A stretch of DNA of 64,000 bases from Calditrichia bacterium (GTDB lineage: Bacteria; Calditrichota; Calditrichia; RBG-13-44-9; J075). How positions within the stretch are numbered: the stretch's first letter is position 1; each line of letters opens with the position of its first letter. The position numbers and the translations under genes are program-made. Location of the stretch: contig JANQQU010000093.1 in NCBI GenBank assembly GCA_028284905.1, forward strand, positions 124,001 through 188,000. Reading direction: 5' to 3'. Positions 3,194-34,476 of this stretch are shown here, one piece after another. Below the pieces are notes generated by a model that had not been told where the DNA came from, did no database searches, and saw only the letters and a program-made list of their open reading frames with translations.

Positions 3194-3311
3194 TGTATAT
3201 AAAAAGTCCTGTTCTGCGTCCAGATAATGCAAATTTTACAAAGACCAGAAATTTAAGGGGGGAATGGGGGGAAACCAAATTGTTTGTGGGAACGACCAAC
3301 AACGAAAAAAC

Positions 3312-4307: not shown

Positions 4308-4382
4308 CATATTGTTTCATTCGATGAATTTGCAAAATATTTTCCCTTTCGGTAAATTGGAAAAATTCAACAAGCAGAAAAA

Positions 4383-6983: not shown

Positions 6984-7010
6984 AAACTGATTGGGTTTCA
7001 GGATAACTGG

Positions 7011-8912
7011 TTGATGCTCGGTAATACCAGAGAAGTAAGCTTTACCAATCTCGATCCCGGCGACTATACCTTGTATGTAAAAGCTGCCAACAAAGATGGC
7101 TTTTGGAATGCTGAAGGAGCGTCGATCTATTTGATAATTACACCTCCCTGGTACGAGACCTGGTGGGCTTATCTGTTTTATGTATGTGCCTTATTTGTAT
7201 TGATTTATGTTCTGTGGAGCTACGAGCTTCGACGACAGCGTTTACGTGGTGAAGCGTTACGCTTGCAAGAACTTGACCGATTTAAATCCCGTTTTTTTGC
7301 TAATATTTCCCATGAATTCCGTACACCGCTAACGCTTATTCTCGGCCCCTTAAAAGATTTGGTCGATGGCAAATCGAATGGGGATACCAGCGAGCAATAC
7401 GAGACGATGATGCGCAATGGGCAACGCCTTTTAAAATTAATTGATGATATTCTAAATATTTCCCGCTTGGAAGCCGGCAAATTGGCTCTAACAGCTCAAT
7501 TAGTTGAAATTAATGGTTTAATAAGACGAATTATTGCTTCATTTAAATCCCATGCGGATAGCAAGGAAATCAATTTGAAATTTCGGCCGGCAGCAGAAGC
7601 AATAGAAGTTTTTGTCGACATCGATAAGATGGAAACCATCCTCTATAATCTCTTGGGAAATGCCTTGAAATTTACTCCAACCAAAGGTCGGGTGATTTTG
7701 GAATTGGGATTGGCGGCTTTAAAAAATGATCTCAACCCGAAATCCGAAATTCGAAATCCGCAATCGCAAATAGGAGATCATGTCGCTATTTCAATTCAAG
7801 ATACCGGCCCCGGCATTCCTCCCGATCAACTCATCCACGTCTTTGATCGTTTCCAACAGGGAGAGAATGGGTATGCGAAAGATGATATTGTTGGTAGTGG
7901 GATAGGCCTGGCCTTAACTAAGGAATTGGTAGAATTGCATCAGGGAAAAATTACTGTAGATAGTGAATTACATAAAGGAAGCACTTTTACGATTTATTTA
8001 CCATTGGGTAAAAATCATCTGAGTCCATCAGAAATTATTGAGAAGGAAACTCAAATAAGTCGCTCGTTGGAAAAGCGAATCGAGGGGATACTTGAGGGGA
8101 GCAGCAGAACCTCCGATTTTCGGAAGGATAACTCTAAGGCTGCCGCCAGCAAACTTCCTAAACTGTTGATTGTTGAAGATAACGCGGATATGCGTGCTTA
8201 CATCAAACAGCAATTCAGTCTACATTATCAAATCCTGGAAGCTGAAAATGGCGCGGAGGGCTTGAAGAGGATTCGAAAAGAATATCCCGATCTGGTCATC
8301 AGCGATGTGATGATGCCGGAAATGGATGGCAATGAGCTTTGCCGCCGAATTAAAGAAGATGAAGCAATTAGCCATACCCCGGTTATTTTGCTAACCGCTA
8401 AAGCTGGCGAAGAAGCGCAAGTGGAAGGATTGGGGTTTGGCGCTGATATCTATTTGGAAAAACCATTCAATGCAGAAATTCTTCGACTGACCGTAAAAAA
8501 TTTACTGGGTCAGCAGCGGCGCATTCAACAGTATCTGAAAGATAATTGGCCGGTTTTACCGGAAAATGTCGATAAGCTGAAGATCGGTGTGCGCGATCGG
8601 GAATTTCTGGATAAAGTGACTGGTATTGTCTATCAATATATGGCTGACGAATCTTTCGATATCAGCCGCCTGGCGAAAGAATGCGGCTATAGTAAAACTC
8701 AGCTAAATCGTAAACTTCAGAAACTCACCGATACTGATTCTACTACTTTCCTACGTACCTTACGACTGCGTAAAGCCAAACAGCTATTAGTCGAAGGGCA
8801 GGGTAACGTCACAGAAGTCGCTTTGCAGGTTGGTTTCAATAATTTTTCCTATTTTGCCCGGAAATTTAAAGAGGCGTTTGGAACGTCTCCCTCGACGTTC
8901 TTGAAAAATTAA
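7011..8912 (+). CDS. Hybrid two-component system, kinase-receiver-AraC half
   Basis: Continues the frame of the preceding ORF after one TAA codon; the first possible start is the TTG at 7011, with no Shine-Dalgarno, so independent translation is doubtful. Order: rest of Y_Y_Y domain, one membrane helix (WWAYLFYVCALFVLIYVLW), HisKA with H-box FFANISHEFRTPLTLILGP, HATPase with N-box LLGNALKFTP and G-boxes DTGPGIPP and GSGIGLALTKEL, receiver (LLIVEDNADMR, phospho-Asp in ISDVMMPEMDG, Lys in LEKPF), and an AraC-type DNA-binding domain (VTEVALQVGFNNFSYFARKF). All phosphorelay residues are intact. Between N-box and G1 box is an extra segment, LNPKSEIRNPQSQIG, encoded by five 7-bp repeats. The exported-protein cluster at 9211-15324 follows on the same strand and is the natural candidate target. 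Confidence 0.88.
   Translation: MMLGNTREVSFTNLDPGDYTLYVKAANKDGFWNAEGASIYLIITPPWYETWWAYLFYVCALFVLIYVLWSYELRRQRLRGEALRLQELDRFKSRFFANISHEFRTPLTLILGPLKDLVDGKSNGDTSEQYETMMRNGQRLLKLIDDILNISRLEAGKLALTAQLVEINGLIRRIIASFKSHADSKEINLKFRPAAEAIEVFVDIDKMETILYNLLGNALKFTPTKGRVILELGLAALKNDLNPKSEIRNPQSQIGDHVAISIQDTGPGIPPDQLIHVFDRFQQGENGYAKDDIVGSGIGLALTKELVELHQGKITVDSELHKGSTFTIYLPLGKNHLSPSEIIEKETQISRSLEKRIEGILEGSSRTSDFRKDNSKAAASKLPKLLIVEDNADMRAYIKQQFSLHYQILEAENGAEGLKRIRKEYPDLVISDVMMPEMDGNELCRRIKEDEAISHTPVILLTAKAGEEAQVEGLGFGADIYLEKPFNAEILRLTVKNLLGQQRRIQQYLKDNWPVLPENVDKLKIGVRDREFLDKVTGIVYQYMADESFDISRLAKECGYSKTQLNRKLQKLTDTDSTTFLRTLRLRKAKQLLVEGQGNVTEVALQVGFNNFSYFARKFKEAFGTSPSTFLKN
7737..7771. repeat. Five tandem 7-bp repeats inside the histidine kinase coding region
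   Basis: Units CCGAAAT, CCGAAAT, TCGAAAT, CCGCAAT, CGCAAAT lie head to tail and are translated as part of LNPKSEIRNPQSQI. They sit in the loop between the N-box and G1 box of the ATPase domain, where an insertion is likely tolerated. Low-complexity peptides of this kind are known from similar short repeats in other environmental genomes (recollection, not checked). Confidence 0.8.
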
Positions 8913-9210
8913 GTATTACCTTTTTTCCTACCTTAGATCATTCCCAAAGTCCCCAATTCTCGCAATATGTTTCCAAAGTGTTAGCTTTTGCATCCATCGT
9001 GTTAGCGATTGATGGGTGTGATTTGCTATGCTTTAGTGAAGCATTTATAGTCTGATATCTCTTGGAAAAATTTATCTTTGAGGAGGGAATACCCAATACC
9101 AAATAGCGGGTGCCTGTAATGTTCAGCGCCCGCTATGGGGGTAATTAAAAAGGGAGGCTAATTTTGTCAAGTAGATTTAGCAATGATAATCTGAAATTCA
9201 GGAGGTAAAT
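8913..9210 (+). promoter_or_regulatory. Leader region upstream of the exported-protein cluster, with hairpins
   Basis: This 298-bp gap holds no gene. It has two inverted repeats: ATGCTT/AAGCAT at 9028-9033 and 9039-9044, and a perfect 8-bp stem ATAGCGGG/CCCGCTAT at 9103-9110 and 9129-9136. A Shine-Dalgarno-like AGGAGGG near 9081 is not followed by a gene; the real one is AGGAGGT just before the ATG at 9211. No clear sigma-70 boxes were found. The region could be a structured 5' leader or hold regulator sites; that is inference. Confidence 0.45.
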
Positions 9211-10578
9211 ATGAAAGTGCTTAATTGGGGATTTATTTCTTTATTTTCATTTTTTCTAACTACTGCCACTTTTGCACAAATTCCTCAAATTCTTTCTTAT
9301 CAGGGAGTGTTAACAGATAGTGCAGGTGTTCCATTTGCCGATAACCCTTATGAAATAACCTTCCGCCTCTATGAGGAAGCAGAAGATGGAAGTGTTCTTT
9401 GGTCAGAAGCAGATATTGTTATGACAAGTAAGGGATTGTTTAATACTATTCTCGGCGACCAGAATAATTTCTATCCTACAATAAAATTTGATAGGCAGTA
9501 TTGGTTGAGTCTTCAGGTTGGGAATGAAGCCGAACTCTTGCCAAGAATTGCCCTTACAAGTACTCCCTATAGTATTCACAGTCTTAATGCCGATACAGCA
9601 CAATTCGCCTTGAGAAGCATTGCAGATTCTACATGGATTAATCAGGGAATAAATATTTATCGTTTGTCCGGATTTGTTGGAATTGGTAAGGCTGCACCTG
9701 AGGCCAGATTGCACCTTCGGGGATCAGAGAATAACGGAGCGAATGCTGCTTTAAAAATAGAATCTAGTAACTCATTGATGTTAATTGATGGCAATGAGAT
9801 TGATGAAGTTAACGGTGGACTTTTTTTGAATCATAATTCTCCTCATAAATTGATTCTTGCGACTGGAGGTGGATTAGTTGGAGTTGGTACTACAATTCCT
9901 TCAGGAGGTAAACTTCATGTAGTGGGGTCTGATAATAACGGTACAAGTGCCAGCTTAAAAATAGAATCCGGTGATCAGGTAATGCTGATCGATGGTAATG
10001 AAATAGACGTGACAACCGGTGCTTTATGGCTAAACAATAATTCACAAAATAGAGTATTAATATCACCGAACGGCGGTAATGTCGGTATTGGTACTTCCTC
10101 CCCTAATTCAACACTTCATGTAGAAGGCACTACACGAACTAAGATATTAGAGATTACCGGTGGGGCTGATTTAGCTGAGCCTTTTGAAATGACGGGCTCA
10201 ATAAATCTGACACCTGGTGCGTTGGTTGTGATTGATAAAGAGAACCCGGGTAAACTCAAAGTTAGTGAAACATCTTATGACAGTAAAGTAGCCGGGGTAA
10301 TAAGCGGTGCTGGAGGAATTGAACCAGGATTAACCTTAAAGCAAGATGGAGTTTTGGATAGTGGGCAAAATGTCGCCCTTACCGGGAGGGTATATGCCTT
10401 AGCCACGTCTCAAAACGGTGAAATCCAACCCGGAGATTTGTTAACTACTTCCAATATTGCCGGCCATGCTATGAAAGCCACCGATCTGCAAAAACGCTCC
10501 GGAGCTATTATTGGTAAAGCAATGTCTCCGCTTACAGATGGTGAAGGATTAGTCATGGTTTTAGTTAATTTGCAATGA
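9211..10578 (+). CDS. Exported tail-fibre-like protein with C-terminal GADLAEPF-type domain
   Basis: A 455-residue protein with a signal peptide (SLFSFFLTTATFAQ) and good Shine-Dalgarno AGGAGGT. The N-terminal domain (IPQILSYQGVLTDSAGVPF to ALTSTPYSIHSLNADTA) is typical of exported fibre-like proteins of FCB bacteria. The middle has two about 75-residue repeats (GSENNGANAALKIESS..., GSDNNGTSASLKIESG...) ending VGIGTxxPxxxLHVEG, a motif seen in trimeric phage-tail-like stalks. The last about 150 residues (GADLAEPFEM, GRVYALAT, PGDLLTTSNIAGHAM, GAIIGKAM, VMVLVNLQ) form a conserved domain shared with the paralogue at 11932-13656. No T9SS sorting domain, so export beyond the periplasm is unclear. 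Function unknown; a trimeric surface fibre is the best guess. First gene of an apparent operon. Confidence 0.8.
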   Translation: MKVLNWGFISLFSFFLTTATFAQIPQILSYQGVLTDSAGVPFADNPYEITFRLYEEAEDGSVLWSEADIVMTSKGLFNTILGDQNNFYPTIKFDRQYWLSLQVGNEAELLPRIALTSTPYSIHSLNADTAQFALRSIADSTWINQGINIYRLSGFVGIGKAAPEARLHLRGSENNGANAALKIESSNSLMLIDGNEIDEVNGGLFLNHNSPHKLILATGGGLVGVGTTIPSGGKLHVVGSDNNGTSASLKIESGDQVMLIDGNEIDVTTGALWLNNNSQNRVLISPNGGNVGIGTSSPNSTLHVEGTTRTKILEITGGADLAEPFEMTGSINLTPGALVVIDKENPGKLKVSETSYDSKVAGVISGAGGIEPGLTLKQDGVLDSGQNVALTGRVYALATSQNGEIQPGDLLTTSNIAGHAMKATDLQKRSGAIIGKAMSPLTDGEGLVMVLVNLQ

Positions 10579-10594
10579 TACAAGGAATATAAAT

Positions 10595-11887
10595 ATGAAT
10601 TCCAGTTTAATATTTGGCAATAAATATCATACTGCATTGATTGAAATCGTGCTGCTGTTTGTGCCATTTTTCCTGCTTTCACAAAACCATTCGAGAAAAT
10701 CTTATGAAGGTTACTACCTGAAATATGAGACATACCCGGAAGATGCAACGAATTGGTGGATGTACAATGGACTCGAAGTTCAAGGGGTAACGCATGACGA
10801 TGACAATTGGTATTTTACCCTTACATTTAAAGGTGGGGGGAACGGAATTTTGCGAAGAATACCACGATCCGTTCCATTGGCTTCCGGAGCAATTCAACCG
10901 TCAAACCCTGGCATTAAATCGATAACGATGCAAGAAGTACCGGAGCTGGCCGCTCATAATTATTGGCATTGGGGTGACCCTGACCATTATAGATATGATG
11001 AAGTTGATTATATACTCATCCCGATTCCTGGACCGATAATCGCCTGTTTCCGTGCATCAGACTTGGCATTCATCAATTATGCACATTTAGATGGGAATAT
11101 TCAAGATTATGCTGGCTGGTGTGCGGTTAATTCCGAAGGAAATATTTATACTTCAAGTAATCATGCTTGGGGAGTTTTGGAATATGAAGTTGACTGGCCA
11201 ACCTTATTAAACTCAAGTAGTCATAATGCATTGAGTTATGTTGCTGATTATCCATTTCATGATATAAACGGATCTCCAATACAACTTCTTCATATGCAGG
11301 GTGGAGAATTTACTCCCAGCGATGAATTACTCTATGTGGTATGTGGGAGTGCCGGATGTCTGGGCATTGGACCAGGGCAGCCTGAACCATCCGACGGTAT
11401 CCATGTTTTTGAAACAAATACCTGGAAAGATATAAAACGCTCTACCAATACAAGTGGTGGCAATTCACATTTCAATTATACTTTTGATAATAGCTGTGCA
11501 TGTTTCGTTTTTGGCTCACAAACTCCTGAAGGATTAACAATTTGGGATTTGGATGATGGCAGTGCCCCATTTATCAGTGGTCAGTTACATGTAATAGTTG
11601 ATCATTACAACATAAAATTTTGTGATGATGCTATAACGATGCAACATTTTGGAAAAAATATATATGTTGATAAAGTAACAGGCGTGGATCCACCGACAAC
11701 TCCCCTGACTGGAACAATTACCAAACCTTTTAAATCCATTGAGTCTGCGTACAATTTTTATCCGGTATGGGATGGTGCTCAATTGATAATCAAACCTGGA
11801 ATATATAGTGAGGTTGGCATCTTTGATACTCGTATTTTTCTGAAAAGTCAGGGATCAGGATCGGTTATAATAGGCCAAGGACTCTAA
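10595..11887 (+). CDS. Exported protein of unknown function with C-terminal beta-helix-like module
   Basis: A 430-residue protein starting 16 bp after the previous gene. A hydrophobic N-terminus (IEIVLLFVPFFLLSQ) looks like a signal peptide. The body (EVQGVTHDDDNWYFTLT, YILIPIPGPIIACFRASDL, LLHMQGGEFTPSDELLYVV) looks like repeated beta blades and may be a propeller; no family is recognised. The last about 55 residues (TGTITKPFKSIESAYN, LIIKPGIYSEVGI, GSVIIGQ) resemble a short right-handed beta-helix start and recur at the end of the astacin-like protease at 13694-14740. Codons are A/T-rich, like its neighbours. Start chosen at the ATG with an AAGGAATA stretch upstream. Confidence 0.75.
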   Translation: MNSSLIFGNKYHTALIEIVLLFVPFFLLSQNHSRKSYEGYYLKYETYPEDATNWWMYNGLEVQGVTHDDDNWYFTLTFKGGGNGILRRIPRSVPLASGAIQPSNPGIKSITMQEVPELAAHNYWHWGDPDHYRYDEVDYILIPIPGPIIACFRASDLAFINYAHLDGNIQDYAGWCAVNSEGNIYTSSNHAWGVLEYEVDWPTLLNSSSHNALSYVADYPFHDINGSPIQLLHMQGGEFTPSDELLYVVCGSAGCLGIGPGQPEPSDGIHVFETNTWKDIKRSTNTSGGNSHFNYTFDNSCACFVFGSQTPEGLTIWDLDDGSAPFISGQLHVIVDHYNIKFCDDAITMQHFGKNIYVDKVTGVDPPTTPLTGTITKPFKSIESAYNFYPVWDGAQLIIKPGIYSEVGIFDTRIFLKSQGSGSVIIGQGL

Positions 11888-11931
11888 ATTAATATCTTAT
11901 TTAATTTACAATTATACTGTTGAGGTGTGCG

Positions 11932-13656
11932 ATGAAATACTTTGGATCTATTTTGGCAATAGTTCTTTTCATCTTCTCTACAAACTTTGTTATTGCTCAA
12001 ATTCCTCAAACGCTTTCATATCAGGGTGTATTGACCAATCCTAATGGAGAACCTTACCCAAATGATACTTATATGATGACATTTCGTTTATATGTAACAG
12101 AAAATGGAGGCGATGCTTTATGGGCAGAAACAGACCCTGTGGAAACCAATCGTGGGCTATTTCATACGATATTAGGCAATCAAGTAAATTTCGAACCAAT
12201 TGTTAAATTTGACCGGCGCTACTGGCTTGGAATACAATTGGAGAATGAGCAGGAGCTTACCCCCCGGATTCCTTTGACTAGCGTTGCATACAGTTTCAAT
12301 GCTACTCGTGCAGATACAGCTAATGTTGCTTTAAATTCCATCTATAATTCTGCCTGGATGTCTAATGAGGACGATACTTATCTGATAAACGGGAATATAG
12401 GGATAGGGACTGCATCTCCCAGCAGAAAACTTCACATAAAAGATACGAATTATGTTGCTTTAGCAATAGAAAATGAAAATTCAGCATTTGCAAAACAACT
12501 ACAGTTCAGGGTGAATAACCAAACCCGTTGGTATTTTAGTGTGATCAATGAAGAGATTGGCAGTGATGAAGGTTCCGACTTTTATTTAGTGCGGAGGGGA
12601 GATAATAGCGCTGTATTGGGAACACCTCTGTTTATCGAACGGGCAACCGGTAATATCGGAATTGAGACTACTAATCCTACAACTAGGCTCGATGTTAATG
12701 GTGGAACGAAAGTTGGGAATGTATTTAGTAGCCCGAAATACGAAGATCATTTTGTCGTCCGATCTAATGGTAATTTGGCTTTTGAAGGTGGTCAAATTTT
12801 TACCAATGGAGACGGTGCTCAATATAATGGAATTAAATTTAGTTCTGCCTATTCTAGTGGTACACCCCAACTGCGGATTGGTGAAGTTGCATTAAATGCA
12901 CCAAATACTTTTACAAAAGACTATCTAAGCTTTCGGGTTGGTAATGTAGGAATTGGAACGACAAACCCGCTAGGTACGCTAGATGTATTATCTGGAAATT
13001 CCGCCGATGGGGTCGTACGTATAAGGTCACATCCTTCAATTCTTGATCAAGGAGGTATTGTTCATCATCAGGGTAGAGAATATGCCTGGCAGGAAGTTGC
13101 TCAAGGAACTGGTACGACAACAGGCTCTCTAAGCTATCATTATGTTTTAAATACATCGCCGGAAACTAAAGTCAAAGAGGATGTAATGGTATTGAATGCT
13201 AATGGAACAGTTAGTGTAAAAGTTCTACAAATAACCGGGGGGGCAGATTTAGCCGAGCCATTTGAAATGTCTGATTCGCAAAAACTGAAACCAGGGACGC
13301 TAGTTGTAATAGATGAAGTAAATCCAGGTAAACTAAAAATGAGCAATGCGCCTTATGATCGGAAAGTAGCCGGTATTATTAGCGGTGCAGGAGGGATTGA
13401 GCCTGGGCTGACTTTAAGCCAGGACAGTATTTGGGAAAATGGGCAAAATGTAGCCCTAACCGGTAGAGTATACGCTATGTCAACAACTGAAAATGGTCCG
13501 ATCAAACCAGGGGATTTATTGACAACATCAAACATACCCGGACATGCTATGAGAATTAAAGACAATAACAAAGCGCAAGGTGCAATTATCGGGAAAGCTA
13601 TGACTTCCTTGGAAAGCGGCCGCGGATTAGTTCTGGTATTAGTAACGCTCCAGTAA
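11932..13656 (+). CDS. Exported tail-fibre-like protein, paralogue of the 9211 gene
   Basis: About 574 residues. The ATG at 11932, after GAGGTG, gives a clean signal peptide (FGSILAIVLFIFSTNFVIAQ); a TTG at 11920 in the same frame is less likely. It has the same layout as the protein at 9211: N-terminal IPQTLSYQGVLTNPNGEPY, a middle with several NIGIGTxxPxxxLxV repeats, and the C-terminal domain GADLAEPFEM, GRVYAMST, PGDLLTTSNIPGHAM, GAIIGKAM, LVLVLVTLQ. The two C-terminal domains are also very similar at DNA level, so they are recent duplicates or under gene conversion, while the stalks differ. Role unknown; two related fibres with different shafts are suggested. Confidence 0.8.
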   Translation: MKYFGSILAIVLFIFSTNFVIAQIPQTLSYQGVLTNPNGEPYPNDTYMMTFRLYVTENGGDALWAETDPVETNRGLFHTILGNQVNFEPIVKFDRRYWLGIQLENEQELTPRIPLTSVAYSFNATRADTANVALNSIYNSAWMSNEDDTYLINGNIGIGTASPSRKLHIKDTNYVALAIENENSAFAKQLQFRVNNQTRWYFSVINEEIGSDEGSDFYLVRRGDNSAVLGTPLFIERATGNIGIETTNPTTRLDVNGGTKVGNVFSSPKYEDHFVVRSNGNLAFEGGQIFTNGDGAQYNGIKFSSAYSSGTPQLRIGEVALNAPNTFTKDYLSFRVGNVGIGTTNPLGTLDVLSGNSADGVVRIRSHPSILDQGGIVHHQGREYAWQEVAQGTGTTTGSLSYHYVLNTSPETKVKEDVMVLNANGTVSVKVLQITGGADLAEPFEMSDSQKLKPGTLVVIDEVNPGKLKMSNAPYDRKVAGIISGAGGIEPGLTLSQDSIWENGQNVALTGRVYAMSTTENGPIKPGDLLTTSNIPGHAMRIKDNNKAQGAIIGKAMTSLESGRGLVLVLVTLQ

Positions 13657-13693
13657 AACTTCTTTATCATTTTAAATCACGAGGAGTAAGAAC

Positions 13694-14740
13694 ATGAAGT
13701 ATAGAAATCCTCTCTTGTTAACCTTGTTAATTAGTGGTTGGGGAATTGCACTCTTCCCCAGAGTTGCTGAAGCGCAGACCTATTTGCCGCAAGAGTATTC
13801 GGAGCAAACAATCGCTTCCCAAACGGGTGAAATGACACCGCCGCTCAAGATACCTGAAGGTTATATGCTTTTTGAAGGCGATATACTGCTGCCGGAAGAT
13901 TATTTTGAAAATAACGAAGCAGCGTTTAATGTAAATCTGTGGCCTGATGGTATCGTTCCTTTTGAATTTAATGCCAATGTTTCCGCAAATAATCAAGACC
14001 GTATGCTCGATGCAATGGCTGAGATAGAAGGAGATGCACATATCGTTTTCATACCTAGGATCAACGAGTCCAACTATATCCATATTCAGAGTGACAGTTT
14101 TAACTACTCGACTGGCATTGGTATGCAGGAGGGGAAACAAACAATTGGTTTAATTAGTTGGTGGTCAAAAATTGTCATAATACATGAATTATTTCATGCT
14201 CTGGGAATATGGCATGAGCAAAGCAGGAGCGATCGCGATAACTTTATTCAAATAAACTGGCAAAACATGGGAACATCCAACGATACTACCTGGCAGTTTA
14301 CAAAACAAAATCACGCTGGCGTTTATCCCAAACAAGCATATGGCCTTCCTGATTCGCTCACTTATGATTTTGATTCTATGATGCACTATGGGCAGTTCGA
14401 TTTCTCTAATAATGGTCAGCGAACCATTACTGTTTTAGCGCCGAACCAAAGCTGGCAAAACCGGATTGGTCAAAGAAGTCATATCAGTTTTCTAGATTCG
14501 CTGACCTTGAATTTCCTTTATCCTGAAGATCATTGGCATTTTGTGGATATTACTCATATTGGATCTCAAACAGGAACGTTTTTAGAACCTTATATGGAAT
14601 TTATAAATGCTATTAACAATCCTAATGTTACAGCAGGTAGTAAGATGCTAATTCAACCGGCGCATTACTCAGCTGTCGGGATATATAATAAAGCTATAAG
14701 CATAACAGCACCACTCGGGAACGTTACACTCGGTCAATAA
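13694..14740 (+). CDS. Exported astacin-type (M12A) zinc metalloprotease
   Basis: A 348-residue protein with signal peptide (LLLTLLISGWGIALF, cleavage near VAEA) and Shine-Dalgarno GAGGAG. The zinc site HELFHALGIWHEQSRSDRD matches the astacin signature HExxHxxGxxHExxRxDRD, and the Met-turn SMMHYG follows, so all three His ligands, the catalytic Glu and the Met-turn are present. It should cut proteins or peptides outside the cytoplasm; the substrate is unknown but could be a neighbouring fibre protein. The last about 55 residues (TGTFLEPYMEFINAIN, YSAVGIYNKAI, GNVTLGQ) match the C-terminal module of the 10595 gene. No T9SS sorting domain. Confidence 0.88.
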   Translation: MKYRNPLLLTLLISGWGIALFPRVAEAQTYLPQEYSEQTIASQTGEMTPPLKIPEGYMLFEGDILLPEDYFENNEAAFNVNLWPDGIVPFEFNANVSANNQDRMLDAMAEIEGDAHIVFIPRINESNYIHIQSDSFNYSTGIGMQEGKQTIGLISWWSKIVIIHELFHALGIWHEQSRSDRDNFIQINWQNMGTSNDTTWQFTKQNHAGVYPKQAYGLPDSLTYDFDSMMHYGQFDFSNNGQRTITVLAPNQSWQNRIGQRSHISFLDSLTLNFLYPEDHWHFVDITHIGSQTGTFLEPYMEFINAINNPNVTAGSKMLIQPAHYSAVGIYNKAISITAPLGNVTLGQ

Positions 14741-14775
14741 ATAATCATGTAGATTATTAGCAGGAAGGAACTGTA

Positions 14776-15324
14776 ATGAACAGGTGTATAATATTCTTAA
14801 TATTTAATATAATTATCTTTTCACTTTGTGCTTATTCCCAGAGTTCAAGAATAGTTACCTACTCTTTCACTTCAGGCTTTGCTGTCCTGACGGATGCAAA
14901 TACAACTGTAACTTCTTCAGTTGGAGAAACTCTAGTGGGAATAAGCCAGGCTGAAAATACTATCCTCAGAAGCGGATTTCTTGGATATCATAGGATTACT
15001 GTAGGCTTAGACGGTGAACCACAACATGAAAATTTGCCGAAAACTTATTCATTAAGCCAGAATTATCCCAATCCATTCAATCCGTCAACAATTATTAAAT
15101 TTGGATTGCCGAAAGCGGGACATGCAATACTTGAAGTTTACAATATCCTCGGACAAAGAGTTGCGATTTTAATCGACGGTTATCAGCCAGCTGGTTATCA
15201 TGAAATAAGTTTTAATGCTCAGCACTTAGCCAGTGGCGTGTACGTTTACAGACTGACTACTGGTGAAACTGGAACTAATGCTGGTCAATTCTCTGCAGTT
15301 CGAAAGATGATATTTATGAAATAA
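14776..15324 (+). CDS. Small exported protein with T9SS C-terminal sorting domain
   Basis: A 182-residue protein. Signal peptide (IIFLIFNIIIFSLCAYSQ), a short N-terminal domain (SGFAVLTDANTTVTSSVGE, ILRSGFLGY) seen in many sorted proteins, then the sorting domain SQNYPNPFNPSTIIKF, LEVYNILGQRV, GYHEISFNAQHLASGVYVYR, ending KMIFMK. Such domains direct transfer through the type IX secretion system and surface attachment; porU and porV homologues are at 43120-49245. With about 90 residues outside the sorting domain it may serve as an anchor rather than an enzyme. Last gene of the A/T-rich cluster; no terminator hairpin was seen after it. Confidence 0.85.
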   Translation: MNRCIIFLIFNIIIFSLCAYSQSSRIVTYSFTSGFAVLTDANTTVTSSVGETLVGISQAENTILRSGFLGYHRITVGLDGEPQHENLPKTYSLSQNYPNPFNPSTIIKFGLPKAGHAILEVYNILGQRVAILIDGYQPAGYHEISFNAQHLASGVYVYRLTTGETGTNAGQFSAVRKMIFMK

Positions 15325-15422
15325 ATTTTAAGGCTCTTGAATTAAAGGGAGACTTGAGTATAAACACATCTGGATTCCAAAATTGTGTTTAGGAACAGGG
15401 GATAGCCGAGGTAAATATACTA

Positions 15423-15582
15423 TCACTCCATCAACCATTCTATCTCATCCAGAAAACGATCCATCAACTGCGCGGTAGCTTGGATGGGCGCTGGGGGAGG
15501 TCATGCCCACATCAGCATCTTAGAAGAGATCTATGGAGCCGGTGGAATTATCCGGTAAAGGAAGCCTGGAGAAGCGTTGTGG
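15423..15582 (-). pseudogene. Decayed copy of the 3' end of pepF
   Basis: The minus strand of 15423-15582 aligns over about 155 bp with the 3' end of the intact pepF at 22017-23855. Read back from its stop, this copy gives APIQATAQLMDRFLDEIE then WLME; the intact gene gives APIEATAQLMDRLLDKME then GLMG. Both keep the stop in the same place. Upstream the copy is out of frame and has a TGA, and similarity fades near 15590, so it is a non-coding remnant. The rest of the 15325-15734 gap shows no gene; it ends with the Shine-Dalgarno AAAGAGGTGA of the next gene. Confidence 0.85.
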
Positions 15583-15734
15583 GCAGCTGTTATTTGTAGC
15601 GCCCTCAATTGGTGAGATAAAATTATCTGATTAAGTAAAATCAGACATATTAAAAACTAATGATTTATCTGTGTCAAAAACTTGCTCATATAACCAATAT
15701 TCGCAGCAATTACAATCCACAAAGAGGTGACTCT

Positions 15735-18590
15735 ATGCGAAAAACTACTTCAATTATCTTGTTAGTCGCTTTTATAAATCTCCTGCTGGCGGATTTGCAT
15801 CTCTACGCCCAGGATGAGCAGCCGAAGAAAGAAAAAGTTGAGGTGAAGGAAAAGAAGAAAAAAACAGCATCCGAGGAAAAAAAGAAAAAGCGGCAATTGC
15901 TACCGGCCGACGATGCCAGCCGGAAAATCTCTCTTTCTCAAGACAAGCAATCTGATGAGAGGGAGGTGCTGGGTGTCCTGAAATCCCTTGCCAATATCCC
16001 CCCGGCGGAAATCCCGGTTTTAGAAAATGCCCTCGGGGATATGAACCAGGATAGCGTGGTGAATATCCTCGATCTTTTGCGGGTGCGGGATATTGTGATT
16101 GGGCAAGGGCCGTCGCCTTCGGCTTATGAGTTGGTGGAAGGAGATTTGAATATTGATGGGGCTATAACAGATAGTGATTTATCGGATATGCAGGAAATAA
16201 TATTGTTCAAAAATGGAGTGCCTTCAACAATAGACAGTTCCGGTGGGGTTTTAGTAAACGGGACAACAAGCATTGTTATTCCTCCAGGAGCAATTAATGA
16301 ACCTATGGTATTAAGCGTTTCACAGATTCCAGATGAAGAAGTTGAAGATAAATCTGGTTTGAATTTTAACACCCTGACCAATCAAGGTTATTCACACATG
16401 GCATCCTTTGAGTTAAATTCTCCAAATGGAATTCAAACGGATTTACCGTTTCAGCTACAAGAGACTTTTTTAGGAGATACTACTAATTTTACAGCAGGTT
16501 TTAATGCCTTATATCAATCATATCCAGATGCAGATGGTGATGGGCAGCCAGAGTTAAGGCTGGTCAGCAAATTAAGTGTTATTGAAGATACAGTTATAAA
16601 TAATCATTTAGAATCAAATACTGCTATAATTATTGTTAGCCAACCGGTTACAGAGCCACCAATAATAGGGTTTGAAGGAACTCCTCCAATTGGTATACCT
16701 GGTGATACGATTGACATTACAATGAATTCAACTATGGGGGCATCTTTCCCTGTTGACTTGGTTCTATTTATTGAAGATCAGGTTAGCGGCAATTACTTAA
16801 AAATTAATGGAGATGAGTGGCTAATCGAAAAAAATATTATAACCGGAATCCGATTAGTTATTCCGCCAATATTACCGGGAGATTATTATATAAAAATAAA
16901 AGCTCTTCAAAATAATCTTTCCTCTAATACCATTCCACTAACTGTTTTGCACCCGATAGGAATTGTCAACCCAGATACAATTATCCAAGTTTTTTATGAT
17001 GACTTGCTAGAAATATATTCTTATGAAGATGAAGATTCGTCTTTCTATGAAAATTATTTGGAGTATAAATATTTTGTTGAACAAGGTTTGTTATTTGAAA
17101 TGCGTGATTCAATATTAGCACTTGATTTGCAATTTAAGGAAAGGATCGCAGCTTATGTTTTACCGCTCTATTTAAATATTAATCCCCAGAATGAATCACC
17201 TCAGTTTGCCACTGCAAATACCTGTCGAAAATTGATCAAAGATAAGTTTAATCGGCAAAATCCTCAACCCGTACCTCAACTAGACGACTGCGATTATTGT
17301 TTAGAATGTATTAGGGTTCTAGAGGATGAAAAACCTTGGCGGCGAAAAATTAAAATGATTATAGATCTTGCCCTATTCGTAGGACCCCCTATTGCTTTCT
17401 TTTGTGGTTCTCCTTTCGTAGGATTTACTCTTACTGCAATTGCAGGTGCTTATATTTTTTTTCCAGTAGAAGATAATTATGATATTTTAAAAAGATTGAT
17501 TGTACATTGTACTAAACAGCCTGATTGCGATCCATTTGATCCCGACCCTGAGCCTGAAGAAGAGGAAGGGTGCGATAATCGTACTTCGAAAGTTACGGTT
17601 GAAAATTATAATCCTACACCAAACGGACCAACATTCCATTGTATGACATTCGACGGTTGCAACCAGGATGGTAATACTGATGATTGCCCTAGTGGAAGCG
17701 GGAATTCCGGAAACAAATTTTCACCCCAAATAAGTTCCGCATTAGAAAAGGGTTCTTCTCCTATAGCTGGAGCTATCATTTCCAGTGCTTCTGGGCTAGT
17801 ACGCTCGAGTATTATTGATAAAAATGGAAAGTTTTCTCTCCAAATCCCCACCTTTTTGGATACACTTAGCCTCAGGATTTATGATCCACAAACTGGATTG
17901 TTTGATGATGACTTTTGGCATGGCCCATTAGTGGAAATAGAAGGAAATTTTGTGCCAATTCAAGGGAAATTTGAACCCGATACCACAAGAACTATTTTCA
18001 CTCTTACCCGAGGTGAATGGGCGGAAGATTCAATAACAGTTACAAGTCATCGTTTAGAATATAACTTTTTTGTATCACCCGACTCTATCGGTAAAGAGTT
18101 TAATTTCGGGTTAAGTGCTGAAAACCCTCTGTTCTTTATGATTCAAGATCCAAATGGCAATGAAATTTACAGAAATACAGATGTAGCTTGTGAGTATGTC
18201 TTAAGTGATACACTAAGCATGTCGGGAACTTATGTTATCGTAGTTACAAAAGGTTTACTTGGCGGCGAAGGCCCATTCACCATCGGCGTAAACTATACTC
18301 CCTATCCCCCCATCCCATACCTCTGCGAAGAAATACCCTACGACACCCTATACGCCGGATTCGATTACATCAGCAAAGATACCCCCTACATCACACCAAA
18401 CGATACCATAACGATGGAGGCCGGCGCGGCGCTACAACTGGAAAGCAGAGGCAGTGTTACAGTGAATGGTGCGCTGCAAGGGCAGGCCAGTGCGGAAAAT
18501 CCGATCATCCTCAAACCGGCGGATAGTGCAAACAAAACCGCATCCCGGAAACCTACTAACAACCGAAAAGCAAAACTGCGGAGGCAATAA
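15735..18590 (+). CDS. Large exported protein with dockerin-like domain
   Basis: About 951 residues from the ATG at 15735, which follows AAAGAGGTGA and opens a signal peptide (SIILLVAFINLLLADLHLYAQ); the frame is open back to 15660 without good signals. Next come a lysine-rich linker and a dockerin-like pair of calcium repeats, DMNQDSVVNILD and DLNIDGAITDSD (Asp1, Asn3, Asp5, Asp12 pattern in both). Further on are Ig-like segments, a cysteine- and hydrophobic-rich stretch near residue 540 (LALFVGPPIAFFCG, VGFTLTAIAGAYIFFP) that may form a membrane hairpin, an acidic PDPEPEEEEG linker and a carboxypeptidase-regulatory-like domain (GAIISSASGLVRSSIIDKNG). The tail (ENPIILKPADSANK, then basic residues) looks cut off. 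Codons are G/C-richer at both ends than in the middle (about 16150-18240). Function unknown. Confidence 0.75.
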   Translation: MRKTTSIILLVAFINLLLADLHLYAQDEQPKKEKVEVKEKKKKTASEEKKKKRQLLPADDASRKISLSQDKQSDEREVLGVLKSLANIPPAEIPVLENALGDMNQDSVVNILDLLRVRDIVIGQGPSPSAYELVEGDLNIDGAITDSDLSDMQEIILFKNGVPSTIDSSGGVLVNGTTSIVIPPGAINEPMVLSVSQIPDEEVEDKSGLNFNTLTNQGYSHMASFELNSPNGIQTDLPFQLQETFLGDTTNFTAGFNALYQSYPDADGDGQPELRLVSKLSVIEDTVINNHLESNTAIIIVSQPVTEPPIIGFEGTPPIGIPGDTIDITMNSTMGASFPVDLVLFIEDQVSGNYLKINGDEWLIEKNIITGIRLVIPPILPGDYYIKIKALQNNLSSNTIPLTVLHPIGIVNPDTIIQVFYDDLLEIYSYEDEDSSFYENYLEYKYFVEQGLLFEMRDSILALDLQFKERIAAYVLPLYLNINPQNESPQFATANTCRKLIKDKFNRQNPQPVPQLDDCDYCLECIRVLEDEKPWRRKIKMIIDLALFVGPPIAFFCGSPFVGFTLTAIAGAYIFFPVEDNYDILKRLIVHCTKQPDCDPFDPDPEPEEEEGCDNRTSKVTVENYNPTPNGPTFHCMTFDGCNQDGNTDDCPSGSGNSGNKFSPQISSALEKGSSPIAGAIISSASGLVRSSIIDKNGKFSLQIPTFLDTLSLRIYDPQTGLFDDDFWHGPLVEIEGNFVPIQGKFEPDTTRTIFTLTRGEWAEDSITVTSHRLEYNFFVSPDSIGKEFNFGLSAENPLFFMIQDPNGNEIYRNTDVACEYVLSDTLSMSGTYVIVVTKGLLGGEGPFTIGVNYTPYPPIPYLCEEIPYDTLYAGFDYISKDTPYITPNDTITMEAGAALQLESRGSVTVNGALQGQASAENPIILKPADSANKTASRKPTNNRKAKLRRQ

Positions 18591-18591
18591 A

Positions 18592-21138
18592 ATGATCTCA
18601 AGAACTGTTCGCTTAATAATAGCAACCATTTTATGCATTTCCTCCGCGGCTATTGCGGATTCTTTAACAGTGGTTGGTCAGGTAACCATAAATGCCGATA
18701 CGACATTTGAGCATATCCGTGTCACTTCAACCGGCGTGCTTATCGGAGATGCTGCCATCAACGTCAGTGGAGATATGCTGATAGAATCCGGGGGCATCGT
18801 TACCCACACGCTTCGCTTGTTAGAAGGATTACGCTTGACGGTGAATGGCACCCTGGAAATACAGCCGGACGGATTCATCGATTTGAATGCAAAAGGTCTG
18901 CGGGGTGGGAATAATGGCCACCAGTTTGGTATTGACGGGGAAGTTTTTGATGAAAATGGGATGATTGTTGGTGCTAACGGTGGTCGTCATCAGGGAGCGG
19001 GCGCTAGCTATGGCGGACGCGGCGCAAACGGCACTGGCGGTGGATTTAATGGGATAGCTAACTTGCCTTATGGTTTATTGGAAGATGCCAATTATTTAGG
19101 TTCCGGCGGTGGGGGAACTGACTGGGCATCCGTTTTTCATAAGGGCGGAAATGGCGGGGGGAAGCTACGAGTTACCGCTGGCACCGTAATTAATAATGGC
19201 GTGATTCGCGCAAATGGCGGCAATGGCGTTAGTGGCGGTGGTCCCAGCTCTGGCGCTGGCTCCGGGGGAAGCATTCGCCTGGAAGTTGATGCACTTTCCG
19301 GCTCGGGATTTATCACCGCCTACGGTGGTGTTGGGGCCCAACAGAGTGGGCGCAGCGGCGCTGGTGGTGGCGGCAGAATTGCCATTTTTTATAATCAATC
19401 GACATCTCCGCTAGAAAATATTTTTGTTCGCGGCGGCAGTGGCGGTAATAGAGGTTCCACAGGTACCATTTACTTAAAAAACAATGCCGAAATAAGTGGC
19501 TCCGTGATCATCGATAACAGCAATTTAACCAGCAGCTTTGCTACGCCTCTGAAATCAGCTTTGGATACTTTTCAAAGATTAACAGTGCTCAATCAAGCAG
19601 TATTGGACATCACCCAAACGGACATTACAGCATTTACACTAGAGCAGCAGCTCGAACTAAAGAATTCCGCTCATCTGCTGTTAGGCAGCGGCGTTAGTAT
19701 GACGGTGCTCAATAACAGCGGATTTGACGTTGATATACAGAGTGGCGCAGCACTAACTTTTCGGCCAGGTGCTTCCTTTAACGCAAACTCAATACTGTTG
19801 AGCGGAGGGATACTAAATTCAGGCATCGATCTGGATTTTCCGGATCCTACAGATTTTCAACTTACTGCATCCAGCACAGTTAACATCCTCGATAGCACCA
19901 TTTTTAGCATCAGTCAGTTTGATACGACCAGTTTTCTATCAGGCATATTTAATTTGACTGATGGTTCCCGGCTGGATGTTGGGACCAATGAAATCTTTAT
20001 TGGGGGAGGATTTACCTTAAGTAAGGATGGCTCATTTGGCGTAGCGGATCAATTGAACAACATCGTCATAGATGCAGATGGTGCGCTTACCCATTCTACC
20101 CGTTTCCTGAAAGGATTGATCCTGAATATCGGTGGCACCCTGGAAATAAGATCCGGGGGACTCATCGATCTGAATGCGAAAGGTCTCCGGGGTGGAAACA
20201 ATGGCCACCAATTTGGTATTGATGGGGAAGTTTTTGATGAAAATGGAATGATTGTTGGGGCTAATGGTGGCCGCGATCAGGGAGCGGGGGCTAGTTATGG
20301 CGGACGCGGCGCAAACGGCACTGGCGGTGGGATTAATGGGATATCTAATTCGCCTTATGGTTTATTAGAAGATGCAGTTTATTTAGGTTCCGGAGGTGGA
20401 GGGACTGACCGAGCATCCATTTTTCACAAGGGGGGAAATGGCGGAGGGAGATTGTCGCTTAGCGCCGAAACTTTAATTAACAATGGCATCATACGGGCGA
20501 ATGGCGGCAATGGCGTTAGTGGCGGTGGCCCTAGCTCCGGAGGGGGCTCCGGGGGAAGTCTCCGCATGGAGGTCAATACGCTTTCCGGTACGGGGTTTAT
20601 TACAGCCTATGGTGGCACTGGCGCGCAGCAGAGTGGGCGCAGCGGCGCTGGTGGTGGTGGGAGAATCGCCATCTATTATAATCAATCGACATTTCCGGCA
20701 GAAAATATTTTTGCCCGCGGTGGCAGCGGAGGTAACAGTGCTTCAACAGGTACTGTTTATCTAAAAAAGAATACTGAGGCGAATGGCACCGTAATTATTG
20801 ATAATACCAATATCGCTAGCAGCTTGTTTACCCCTTTACAAACCAATATAACCACTTTCGATCTTATCAAAGTTGCGAAACAAGGCCGTTATAGACCATC
20901 CGACAACAGCACGACCATTCAGTTAGATTTGTTAGAAATCGAAGAGGGCGCATTGTTTAACGCTGATGCTTTTCTGTCGGTAGAAACCATTACGCTGAAG
21001 AATGGGATTATTGAGTTAAATACACCATTTCAGACAGAAAACTTTACTGCTCAAGAAAACAGTGTTATAAGAGTGAACGCGGCGTTCTCGGTAAAATCCA
21101 TTTTCAATATTTCCAGTGGAAGTATTATCGAAAAATAA
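18592..21138 (+). CDS. Exported glycine-rich repeat protein
   Basis: About 848 residues. The ATG at 18592 follows GGAGG overlapping the previous stop and opens a signal peptide (RLIIATILCISSAAIADS); an upstream start in the same frame at 18466 is a shadow of the previous gene. The protein has two long, near-identical units rich in Gly-Gly (LRGGNNGHQFGIDGEVF, ASYGGRGANGTGGG, GSGGGGTD, SGRSGAGGGGRIAIFYNQ), separated by a beta-solenoid-like stretch (LSGGILNSGIDLDFP, NILDSTIFSISQFD). The pattern suggests a filamentous or matrix surface protein. No sorting domain is seen at the C-terminus (SIFNISSGSIIEK). No enzyme motif. Sits between the dockerin and cohesin genes, with spacing that suggests one operon. 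Confidence 0.75.
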   Translation: MISRTVRLIIATILCISSAAIADSLTVVGQVTINADTTFEHIRVTSTGVLIGDAAINVSGDMLIESGGIVTHTLRLLEGLRLTVNGTLEIQPDGFIDLNAKGLRGGNNGHQFGIDGEVFDENGMIVGANGGRHQGAGASYGGRGANGTGGGFNGIANLPYGLLEDANYLGSGGGGTDWASVFHKGGNGGGKLRVTAGTVINNGVIRANGGNGVSGGGPSSGAGSGGSIRLEVDALSGSGFITAYGGVGAQQSGRSGAGGGGRIAIFYNQSTSPLENIFVRGGSGGNRGSTGTIYLKNNAEISGSVIIDNSNLTSSFATPLKSALDTFQRLTVLNQAVLDITQTDITAFTLEQQLELKNSAHLLLGSGVSMTVLNNSGFDVDIQSGAALTFRPGASFNANSILLSGGILNSGIDLDFPDPTDFQLTASSTVNILDSTIFSISQFDTTSFLSGIFNLTDGSRLDVGTNEIFIGGGFTLSKDGSFGVADQLNNIVIDADGALTHSTRFLKGLILNIGGTLEIRSGGLIDLNAKGLRGGNNGHQFGIDGEVFDENGMIVGANGGRDQGAGASYGGRGANGTGGGINGISNSPYGLLEDAVYLGSGGGGTDRASIFHKGGNGGGRLSLSAETLINNGIIRANGGNGVSGGGPSSGGGSGGSLRMEVNTLSGTGFITAYGGTGAQQSGRSGAGGGGRIAIYYNQSTFPAENIFARGGSGGNSASTGTVYLKKNTEANGTVIIDNTNIASSLFTPLQTNITTFDLIKVAKQGRYRPSDNSTTIQLDLLEIEEGALFNADAFLSVETITLKNGIIELNTPFQTENFTAQENSVIRVNAAFSVKSIFNISSGSIIEK
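18790..19590 (+). repeat. Internal duplication, copy A
   Basis: First of two long repeats within the glycine-rich gene. Matching points are 1287 bp (429 codons) apart, for example LRGGNNGHQFGIDGEVF at about 18900 and again at about 20187. Limits are approximate. Confidence 0.8.
20077..20877 (+). repeat. Internal duplication, copy B
   Basis: Second long repeat of the glycine-rich gene. Differences from copy A are mostly at third codon positions in the core, which suggests selection on the protein. Limits are approximate. Confidence 0.8.
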
Positions 21139-21187
21139 CATCATCTAGCCGGAAAAATATAAGATCAATTTTAATGGGGATTATACA

Positions 21188-21991
21188 ATGTCGAAAAAAT
21201 ACATCACATTTATTCTGAGCTTTTTTTTCCTGACAGTCTCAACTATCGCTGACAATATCTTCAATATCGAAACCAGTTTTGTCACCATAAAAGACACTGG
21301 CAAATTTCACATCATCCTGGAAAATGATGTTGCCGTTAATGGGGCAAATGTTATAATTCAGTACGATCCTGCGTTAATAAAACCATTGGAAATAAAATTG
21401 GCGGAAAGAATACTCAGCTTAAATGGACCTGATGCCAACACTTACGATGGCGATAAAATCAGTTTTCTACTTTTTGATCAAACCGGAAGCTTCTTAGATG
21501 CTGACTCCGGGAAGATTTTTGAAGTAACCTATATGGTGGCCGATACGGCGCTAGGCTCCGACACAACTACCCAGGTAACATTTTTTCAGGGAATTGTTGC
21601 GGATGAAAATCTGGCGGCTATCCCTTTCGAATATGTCGATGGGGAAATTCATATTCAAGGTCCCACTGGTACTGGTGAGGACGAAAAGAAGCCAATTATC
21701 CCGAAACAATTCGCCCTTGGGCAGAACTATCCGAACCCATTTAATCCATCGACAACAATTCCGTTTGCTGTACCGCTGAAGTCCCGGATTACGGTTAAGC
21801 TATATAATGTGTTGGGGCAGCAAGTCAATGTGCTGCTTAAAAAACAAGCTTTTGAACCGGGCTGGCATGAGTTGTTCTTCGACTATTCCCAATATGCCAG
21901 TGGGGTCTATTTCTATCGCATCGAGGCTCAGCCGTTTAGTCGTGGAGAAAAAAGATTTATTGATACGAAAAAGATGGTTTTGATAAAGTAA
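21188..21991 (+). CDS. Exported cohesin-like protein with T9SS sorting domain
   Basis: A 267-residue protein with signal peptide (FILSFFFLTVSTIAD). Residues about 25-155 look like a cohesin-type beta-sandwich (FHIILENDVAVNGANVIIQY, then DPALIKPLE, GKIFEVTYMVAD, VTFFQGIVAD). A short linker leads to a sorting domain, LGQNYPNPFNPSTTIPF, VKLYNVLGQQV, YASGVYFYRIE, ending KKMVLIK. The sorting domain predicts T9SS export and surface attachment. Cohesins bind dockerins, and a dockerin-like domain is encoded two genes upstream (15735-18590), so a surface complex can be proposed; this is inference, and cohesin folds also occur without dockerin partners. Confidence 0.82.
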   Translation: MSKKYITFILSFFFLTVSTIADNIFNIETSFVTIKDTGKFHIILENDVAVNGANVIIQYDPALIKPLEIKLAERILSLNGPDANTYDGDKISFLLFDQTGSFLDADSGKIFEVTYMVADTALGSDTTTQVTFFQGIVADENLAAIPFEYVDGEIHIQGPTGTGEDEKKPIIPKQFALGQNYPNPFNPSTTIPFAVPLKSRITVKLYNVLGQQVNVLLKKQAFEPGWHELFFDYSQYASGVYFYRIEAQPFSRGEKRFIDTKKMVLIK

Positions 21992-22000
21992 TCTCTTCGT

Positions 22001-22026
22001 GATGGGGTAATGAAAGTCACCCCATC
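22001..22026. terminator. Hairpin between convergent genes
   Basis: An 8-bp perfect stem GATGGGGT/ACCCCATC with a 10-nt loop, lying between the cohesin gene and the convergent pepF and overlapping the pepF stop codon. No T-tract follows, so termination activity is uncertain. Confidence 0.45.
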
Positions 22027-23855
22027 AACCCTTCCATCTTATCCAACAACCGATCCATCAACTGCGCAGTCGCTTCGATCGGTGCGGGGGAGGTCATATC
22101 CACTCCGGCATCTTTCAGGAGATCGATGGAGTAGGCGGAATTGCCCCGGGAAAGGAAACGCAGGTAAGCGTCCCGCGCGTTGGTATCTCCGTCAAGGATA
22201 TTCCGGGAAAGCGCCGTCGCTGCAGAAAAGCCGGTGGCATATTGATAGACGTAAAAGTTGTAATAAAAGTGCGGAATCCGGCACCAGTTGATCTGGTAAT
22301 CCGGGTGCATGTTAAATGCCGGACCGAAATAACGCTCGTAGAGATCCTTAGTTAAGGCGCTCATCGCATCCGCAGTCAACGCTTCCCCGCCTTCTACTTT
22401 TTCGTGAATGGTTTTTTCAAACACGGCGAAAAGCGCCTGGATGAAAACGGTGCCGCGAATCTGGTCGATATATTCGTTGAGGAGATACATCTTCTGTTTA
22501 CGGTCCTCGCAGGTTTTCAGTAGATGATCCATCAGTAGCGCTTCATTGAGTGTCGAAGCGACTTCCGCGACAAATATAGTGTAATGACTATAGTGATAAG
22601 GCTGATGGCGATGGGTTAAATGAGAGTGCAGGGCATGCCCCAGCTCATGGGCGGTGGTGAACATATCGTTCAGGGTATTATTATAGTTCAGGAGAATGAA
22701 CGGATGTACGCCGTAAGTCGACCAGGAATAGGCCCCGGAGCGTTTTCCCTGATTTTCATAGACATCAATCCAGCCATCATTAAAGCTTTGTTTTAAATCA
22801 TTTAGATAAGTATCACCCAAAGGCGCCAGCGCGGTTTCGATAGTCTTCAACGCTTCTGCGTAGGGAATCTCAAATTTGACGTCGCTGAGCAGCGGCACGG
22901 AAAGATCCCACGGCTGTAACTCGTCCACGCCGAGCATGCGCTTGCGCAACGTCATGTAGCGATGAAGTGGCTTGATGTTGCGGTTAATACTACCCACCAC
23001 ATTTTCGTAAACCGAAACCGGAATATTATCATTATCGAGCGCAGCGGCGAGGGCACTGGGATATTTCCGGGCGCGGGCATAAAAAATGTCCCGTTTCACT
23101 GCGCCGGAGAGGGTGGCAGCTAAAGTATTCGTCCACTTACCGTAAGTTTGATACATCCCTTTAAAGGCATCCTGGCGCACTTGCCGGTTGGGCGATTCCA
23201 TAAAACGGGCGTAGCGGCCCTTGGTAAGTTCTACCATATTGCCATCTTCATCCTTGATGGAAGGGAATTTAATATCTGCATTATTGAACATTGAAAAAGT
23301 ATTGTAGGGACCCTGGGCAATTTCGCCGGTCATGGCGAGGAGCCGCTCTTCCGCCGGTGGCAGCACATGCGCTTTCCCGCGGAGAATATTCTCCAGCAGA
23401 TGACGATAGTTCGCCAGACCTTCATGTGTGTCGATAAATCCGCGCAAGGTTGTTTCTGCCAAAGACAAAATCTCCGGCTGAATAAAAGCAATCGCCTGGT
23501 TAAACTGTACCACCAGGGAAGATACCAGATCGCGAAAGGCCTGGTATTCTGCGACCCGAGTATCCTGATCATTCTTTAATCCGGCGTAAAGATAAAGTTG
23601 ATACAGCTGCTCTTCCAGTCGATCTTTGCTCTGCAAACATTCGTGCAAACGTTCTGCCGATTCTCCAAGCTTTCCCTGGAATTCCGGAATCGTTTTCATT
23701 CTGCTTTCAATTTCGCTAAAGGTTGCTTCCCATCTTTCATCTGTATCAAATATATCACTGAGTTGCCACTTGTGCTCTTCTGCAATCGTCTCGCGTTCCG
23801 GCAGCGCTGCTACTGCAGGCGTTTCCGTGTTGTAAAGGGGGAAGGTTTTGATCAT
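22017..23855 (-). CDS. pepF: Oligoendopeptidase F (M3B family)
   Basis: A 612-residue cytoplasmic zinc peptidase that cuts oligopeptides. The zinc site TTAHELGHALHSHLTH (HExxH near residue 400) is followed by the third-ligand region FVAEVASTLNEALL. The N-terminal part (KWQLSDIFDTDERWEATFSE) and C-terminal part (YATGFSAATALSRNIL) are typical, and length fits the family (about 600). No signal peptide. It lies downstream of the aminotransferase gene on the same strand but with a 132-bp gap holding a large palindrome, so co-transcription is unclear. A decayed copy of its last about 155 bp is at 15423-15582. Confidence 0.96.
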   Translation of the reverse strand: MIKTFPLYNTETPAVAALPERETIAEEHKWQLSDIFDTDERWEATFSEIESRMKTIPEFQGKLGESAERLHECLQSKDRLEEQLYQLYLYAGLKNDQDTRVAEYQAFRDLVSSLVVQFNQAIAFIQPEILSLAETTLRGFIDTHEGLANYRHLLENILRGKAHVLPPAEERLLAMTGEIAQGPYNTFSMFNNADIKFPSIKDEDGNMVELTKGRYARFMESPNRQVRQDAFKGMYQTYGKWTNTLAATLSGAVKRDIFYARARKYPSALAAALDNDNIPVSVYENVVGSINRNIKPLHRYMTLRKRMLGVDELQPWDLSVPLLSDVKFEIPYAEALKTIETALAPLGDTYLNDLKQSFNDGWIDVYENQGKRSGAYSWSTYGVHPFILLNYNNTLNDMFTTAHELGHALHSHLTHRHQPYHYSHYTIFVAEVASTLNEALLMDHLLKTCEDRKQKMYLLNEYIDQIRGTVFIQALFAVFEKTIHEKVEGGEALTADAMSALTKDLYERYFGPAFNMHPDYQINWCRIPHFYYNFYVYQYATGFSAATALSRNILDGDTNARDAYLRFLSRGNSAYSIDLLKDAGVDMTSPAPIEATAQLMDRLLDKMEGLMG

Positions 23856-23869
23856 GGGGTGATTCCTGT

Positions 23870-23910
23870 TTCGTTAATCGTTTTTTGTTGATCGTTATTC
23901 GTTGATCGTT
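23870..23910. repeat. Three tandem 13-14-bp repeats
   Basis: TTCGTTAATCGTT, TTTTGTTGATCGTT and ATTCGTTGATCGTT follow each other directly upstream of pepF (minus strand). No protein or regulator site is recognised in them. Confidence 0.7.
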
Positions 23911-23922
23911 TGTTTGTTGTTT

Positions 23923-23958
23923 ATCCGTAGAGAAAATTCATGAATTTTCTTTACGGAT
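23923..23958. repeat. 36-bp near-perfect palindrome
   Basis: The two 18-bp halves are reverse complements except for one position, which would be a G-U pair in RNA read from the plus strand. The core AGAAAATTCATGAATTTTCT is a perfect 20-bp palindrome. It lies in the gap between the aminotransferase and pepF genes, both minus strand. No T-tract follows on that strand, so a classic terminator is not supported; processing site, protein-binding site or repeat element are alternatives. Confidence 0.85.
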
Positions 23959-23987
23959 ACCGTTTAACGATCTGCGAACAACAGTAT

Positions 23988-34278: not shown

Positions 34279-34352
<74 letters not shown>

Positions 34353-34383
34353 CTAAGTCTGGCAAAAGCCAGTATGATAAGAA

Positions 34384-34457
34384 GGCGGCATAGCTCAGTT
34401 GGTTAGAGCATCGGAATCATAATCCGAGTGTCCGGGGTTCGAGTCCCTGTGCCGCCA
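34384..34457 (+). tRNA. tRNA-Met (CAT), elongator
   Basis: Cloverleaf of 74 nt without encoded CCA; acceptor stem GGCGGCA/TGCCGCC, T-loop TTCGAGT, anticodon loop ATCATAA giving CAT. Such a tRNA is either elongator Met or the Ile2 species whose C34 becomes lysidine by TilS. G4 and G5 in the acceptor stem, instead of the C4/C5 known to favour TilS in E. coli, argue for Met; this is not proof. tilS is the next gene. Confidence 0.9.
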
Positions 34458-34476
34458 CTTTCTTTCCTTCCAGTTT

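Follow-up and report, generated by a model that had tools for sequence, protein, structure and literature searches.

A short stretch of minus-strand DNA lying three genes away from the intact pepF gene is probably a pseudogene fragment, copied in direct orientation from the last ~141–185 nt of the genome's own pepF, and sits as a seam within a larger insertion (probability roughly 0.7). The copy resembles its parent, its reading frame is broken, its changes are those of unconstrained DNA and its origin lies in the same lineage. The insertion in which it is embedded comprises 17.7 kb of AT-rich DNA between pepF and the asparaginase gene that adjoins pepF in relatives. All positions below refer to the window, that is, the whole stretch of 64,000 nucleotides that was analysed, and the features are collected in Table 1.

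Table 1. Features of the asparaginase–pepF region in window coordinates.
Feature	Position	Strand	Basis
Type I asparaginase, which adjoins pepF in relatives	3264–4307	+	TIGR00519 above cut-off; convergent adjacency in G002, G003 and G011
Left part of the insertion: sensor kinase genes, paralogous secreted genes, astacin peptidase, T9SS gene	4308–15324		Missing from the asparaginase–pepF gap of relatives
Decayed copy of the final ~141 nt of pepF down to the stop codon, with a broken frame	15423–15563	-	BLASTN and codon-level comparison
Possible further decayed pepF sequence (uncertain)	15564–15608	-	Within the optimal alignment, not significant alone
Right part of the insertion, three genes: dockerin-containing protein, Gly-rich repeat protein, cohesin and T9SS protein	15735–21991	+	Pfam
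Terminator-like hairpin that spans the stop codon of pepF, with convergent genes on either side	22001–22028		RNA fold
pepF, oligoendopeptidase F, 612 amino acids, intact	22017–23855	-	TIGR00181 equivalog above cut-off; Peptidase_M3

The decayed pepF end and its ancestry

When positions 15201–15800 were used as a BLASTN query against the window, the only match besides the self-match was the 3′ end of pepF: positions 15423–15563 align with 22017–22157 on the same strand, with 80% identity over 142 nt, two gaps and an E value of 8e-29. The match starts precisely with the stop codon of pepF (plus-strand TCA, at 15423–15425 and at 22017–22019), and the frame of the copy is broken by one single-base insertion, one single-base deletion and an in-frame TAA. 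The sequence-only reading, which had described a minus-strand match to the end of pepF down to the stop codon with a broken frame, is thus borne out. Its estimate of about 155 bp holds in part: ~141 bp are secure and 155–160 bp are plausible, but although the alignment can be extended to ~15608, the extension beyond 15563 is not significant alone (p = 0.19). Chance similarity, which the same reading had proposed to check by alignment, is rejected by the E value and by a second, independent local alignment covering a broader region, whose score of 167 compares with no more than 34 in 300 shuffles. An assembly duplication is unlikely, as the copies are 20% different and both lie on a 392 kb contig.

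Divergence of the remnant from pepF (~20%) is spread over the whole length of the repeat, and a search of the 8.55 Mb genome with positions 15325–15734 gave matches only at the remnant and at the pepF end. The remnant, with a GC content of 51%, forms an island within the AT-rich insertion. No readable junction or duplicated border was obtained, because the flanks of the remnant (15325–15422 and 15609–15734) have no match in the window that exceeds those of shuffled sequence. No piece of pepF beyond 15608 rose above shuffles either, and no further pepF piece was seen in the window.

The intact gene passes the NCBIfam cut-off for the pepF equivalog, and those of its nearest relatives that have a named record are for the most part metagenome assemblies of Calditrichota. 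Folding of the RNA from 21985–22035 gave −14.9 kcal/mol; the hairpin of the pepF end was not seen at the remnant, the border of which folds weakly. On the other side of pepF, between this gene and an aminotransferase gene (23856–23987), lies a palindromic sequence of ~31 bp, which recurs intergenically on contigs C13 and C89 and resembles a small interspersed palindromic repeat.

Maximum-likelihood trees, built on fewer than 180 sites, place the remnant as the sister of the genome's own pepF, with a support of 96 when only the tail is used and of 99 when the remnant is aligned to the tail of the full gene. Changes were polarized against G005, G006 and G003; six were ambiguous and 36 could be assigned, 29 of them to the remnant, where they are distributed 7/10/12 over the codon positions, and seven to the intact gene, where five fall at third positions, the numbers being small for a codon-position test. 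By the tree and this spread over codon positions, the remnant is most likely the lineage's own copy, a duplicate made in this lineage which has since evolved mostly free of coding constraint.

The 17.7 kb insertion and its contents

Asparaginase and pepF are convergent, with ~20–50 bp between the matched frames, in three genomes belonging to two families: G002 and G003, of the same family as the source genome, and G011, of another family of the order. In the source genome the two genes are separated by the 17.7 kb that begin after the end of asparaginase at 4307. A different neighbour adjoins pepF in G005 and G006, which represent another genus of the family, and the asparaginase of G005 lies on another contig; the relatives used for gene order and for the trees were all drawn from genera other than that of the source genome. 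By parsimony, the convergent pair would be the ancestral order and positions 4308–22016 would have been gained in this lineage, the insertion being taken as derived because the genes that flank it stand next to each other without the block in G002, G003 and G011. Composition sets the inserted genes apart as well, their GC3 being 28–44% against 56–57% in asparaginase and pepF. No duplicate of the asparaginase end was detected within the insertion above shuffles, no second pepF end was found in ten relatives within 7–20 kb around pepF, and a tRNA gene as attachment site was considered and rejected, since the window contains no tRNA other than two tRNA-Met at 34279–34458.

The remnant is a seam within this insertion and separates the left part from the three-gene block. 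The sequence-only reading had placed the block between a decayed and an intact pepF end, and the three genes do lie there, but the block is only part of the insertion, since positions 4308–15324 are extra too. Its further proposal, that the block arrived by duplication or recombination with a pepF border of its own, agrees with the finding of a true direct-orientation duplicate of this lineage and of two long genes without homologues in the relatives searched; it has to be amended in that the remnant marks a seam inside a larger insertion. A relative carrying the remnant without the block, which would have spoken against the proposal, was not found among the ten relatives checked.

Genes of the left part have a GC content of 37–43% and a GC3 of 28–41%. 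The sensor at 4383–8912 (propeller/hybrid two-component, with an AraC-type output) is present as two ORFs split by a single in-frame TAA at about 6981–6983, which may be a recent nonsense mutation, a sequencing error or the sign of a pseudogene. The paralogous genes 9211–10578 and 11920–13656 share 68% amino-acid identity at their C-termini and have related N-termini; a similar C-terminal motif occurs in the genes 10595–11887 and 13694–14740, each of which follows one of these paralogues.

Within the right part, the gene 15735–18590 has no homologue in 39 other genomes of the phylum nor in plasmids, and none was found for the gene 18571–21138 in 16 genomes of the phylum nor in plasmids. The latter gene, whose Gly-rich product weakly resembles the gliding-motility protein AgmC, contains a 694 bp internal repeat (18846–19538 and 20133–20825; 82%). 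A type I dockerin domain (in 15735–18590) and a cohesin domain (in 21188–21991) are encoded in the same block, beside a T9SS sorting signal, and may interact as a cohesin–dockerin pair on the cell surface. Around the three-gene block, neither a recombinase or transposase nor a terminal repeat was recognized.

Both pepF ends lie just downstream of a gene that ends in a T9SS sorting domain, as had been noted from the sequence: the stop codon of 14776–15324 is 98 bp from the remnant and that of 21188–21991 is 25 bp from intact pepF. These two genes show no detectable DNA homology, and the 41% amino-acid identity of their products is confined to the sorting domain; tandem duplication of a unit made up of a T9SS gene and a pepF end is rejected on this ground. 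At least 150 T9SS sorting domains in the genome pass the cut-off (150 of 347 candidates scored). Given this number and the lack of DNA homology between the neighbours, the parallel carries little weight; it is weak evidence, better explained by the abundance of such genes. A literature search found nothing on T9SS in Calditrichota.

Proposed origin and alternative explanations

The gap between the convergent genes would have collected genes for secreted proteins in at least two steps, in one of which the DNA now at 15735–21991 would have come between two copies of the pepF end. This could have happened by a local (tandem-type) duplication of the pepF end followed by insertion between the copies, or through one crossover inside the pepF 3′ end with DNA that brought both the block and a pepF end. 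Either route would leave one complete pepF and one orphan end, functionless and decaying. The intermediate state is carried by no relative examined, and we infer the mechanism because no junction signature is left and no recombinase was recognized in the insertion. A duplication of a gene end is present elsewhere on the same contig (C39:217918–218237, or 93918–94237 from the start of the window and outside it): a 160 bp tandem duplication, 98% identical, which comprises 57 nt of the 3′ end of a glycosyltransferase-like gene together with downstream DNA. It is younger than the pepF remnant and shows that gene-end duplication occurs in this genome. Besides these two, no clear intergenic copy of a gene end was seen in the 1.09 Mb (13% of the genome) scanned, so that the pepF case does not belong to a pattern that is frequent in that part. 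The broader notion that the asparaginase–pepF gap is a recurrent landing site for cassettes of secreted-protein genes, each arrival using homology at the 3′ end of pepF, rebuilding an intact pepF and leaving the old ends behind as time-stamped seams, is very improbable.

Two other histories would also leave a partial pepF at this place. The remnant could be the pepF end of a donor, if DNA of a close relative comprising the left block and its own pepF end had been joined here by homology-facilitated illegitimate recombination, with homology acting at one end and an illegitimate join at the other. This would yield the observed layout in one step through a process that is on record (PMC3240628), and the composition of the insertion does differ from that of its borders. 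A functional donor pepF, however, would be expected to differ mainly at third positions, and the 7/10/12 distribution on the remnant argues against a divergent donor, though less so against a very close one; nor is any of the genomes compared closer to the remnant than the genome's own pepF, and we regard a donor origin as rather unlikely. Alternatively, a complete second pepF may once have stood here, of which a deletion accompanying the gain or rearrangement of the blocks left only the last ~150 nt. The sister position of the remnant fits this, and several relatives carry two pepF homologues, although in the same family the additional homologue is, where seen, a distant paralogue (43%). With no other pepF piece in the window, flanks that match pepF nowhere else and an extra deletion to be postulated, such a history appears quite unlikely.

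The layout of a gene end, cargo and an intact gene with the same end in direct orientation is also what a site-specific integrative element would produce, if a recombinase used the 3′ end of pepF as its attachment site and the element carried a replacement end. Against it, no integrase family was found among the insertion genes tested (Pfam and NCBIfam), the cargo looks like secreted cell-surface genes and the repeat has no sharp conserved core, being ~20% diverged across its length, so that we consider an element of this kind highly improbable. It is scarcely credible that the remnant is retained because of a function, such as that of a terminator or of an RNA that acts on pepF: its intergenic position and its persisting resemblance to the pepF end would be in keeping with such a role, but its changes are spread as in unconstrained DNA, the hairpin of the intact end is missing from it and it has no Rfam match. 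A copy of the lineage's own pepF end, decaying as a pseudogene fragment at a seam of the insertion, remains our preferred reading.

Significance and comparison with known systems

Scars of gene ends are an ordinary outcome of bacterial genome rearrangement. The remnant is ordinary in this sense, a rearrangement seam that most likely does nothing; no new mechanism is shown and there is no sign of a recurrent system in the 1.09 Mb scanned. What it documents is that an AT-rich, lineage-specific run of genes for secreted proteins has grown in steps within a single gap between two genes, where the decaying pepF end marks a seam that can be dated. This helps in tracing how this large genome of the Calditrichota has expanded.

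Three known systems invite comparison. Genomic islands of the integrative-element type have direct repeats of a gene 3′ end at both borders, and here too such a repeat stands on both sides of inserted genes; they differ from the present case, in which no recombinase was recognized, there is no short conserved core, the repeat is diverged throughout and the insertion extends beyond one of the repeats. In homology-facilitated illegitimate recombination, a homologous join on one side only can strand a gene end beside new DNA (PMC3240628), whereas the substitution pattern of the remnant does not favour a donor origin, in particular not one from a divergent donor. The bacterial pseudogene fragment arising from partial gene duplication likewise copies only the end of a nearby gene, with a broken frame, and decays without constraint; unlike it, the copy described here lies three genes from its parent, inside a larger lineage-specific insertion.
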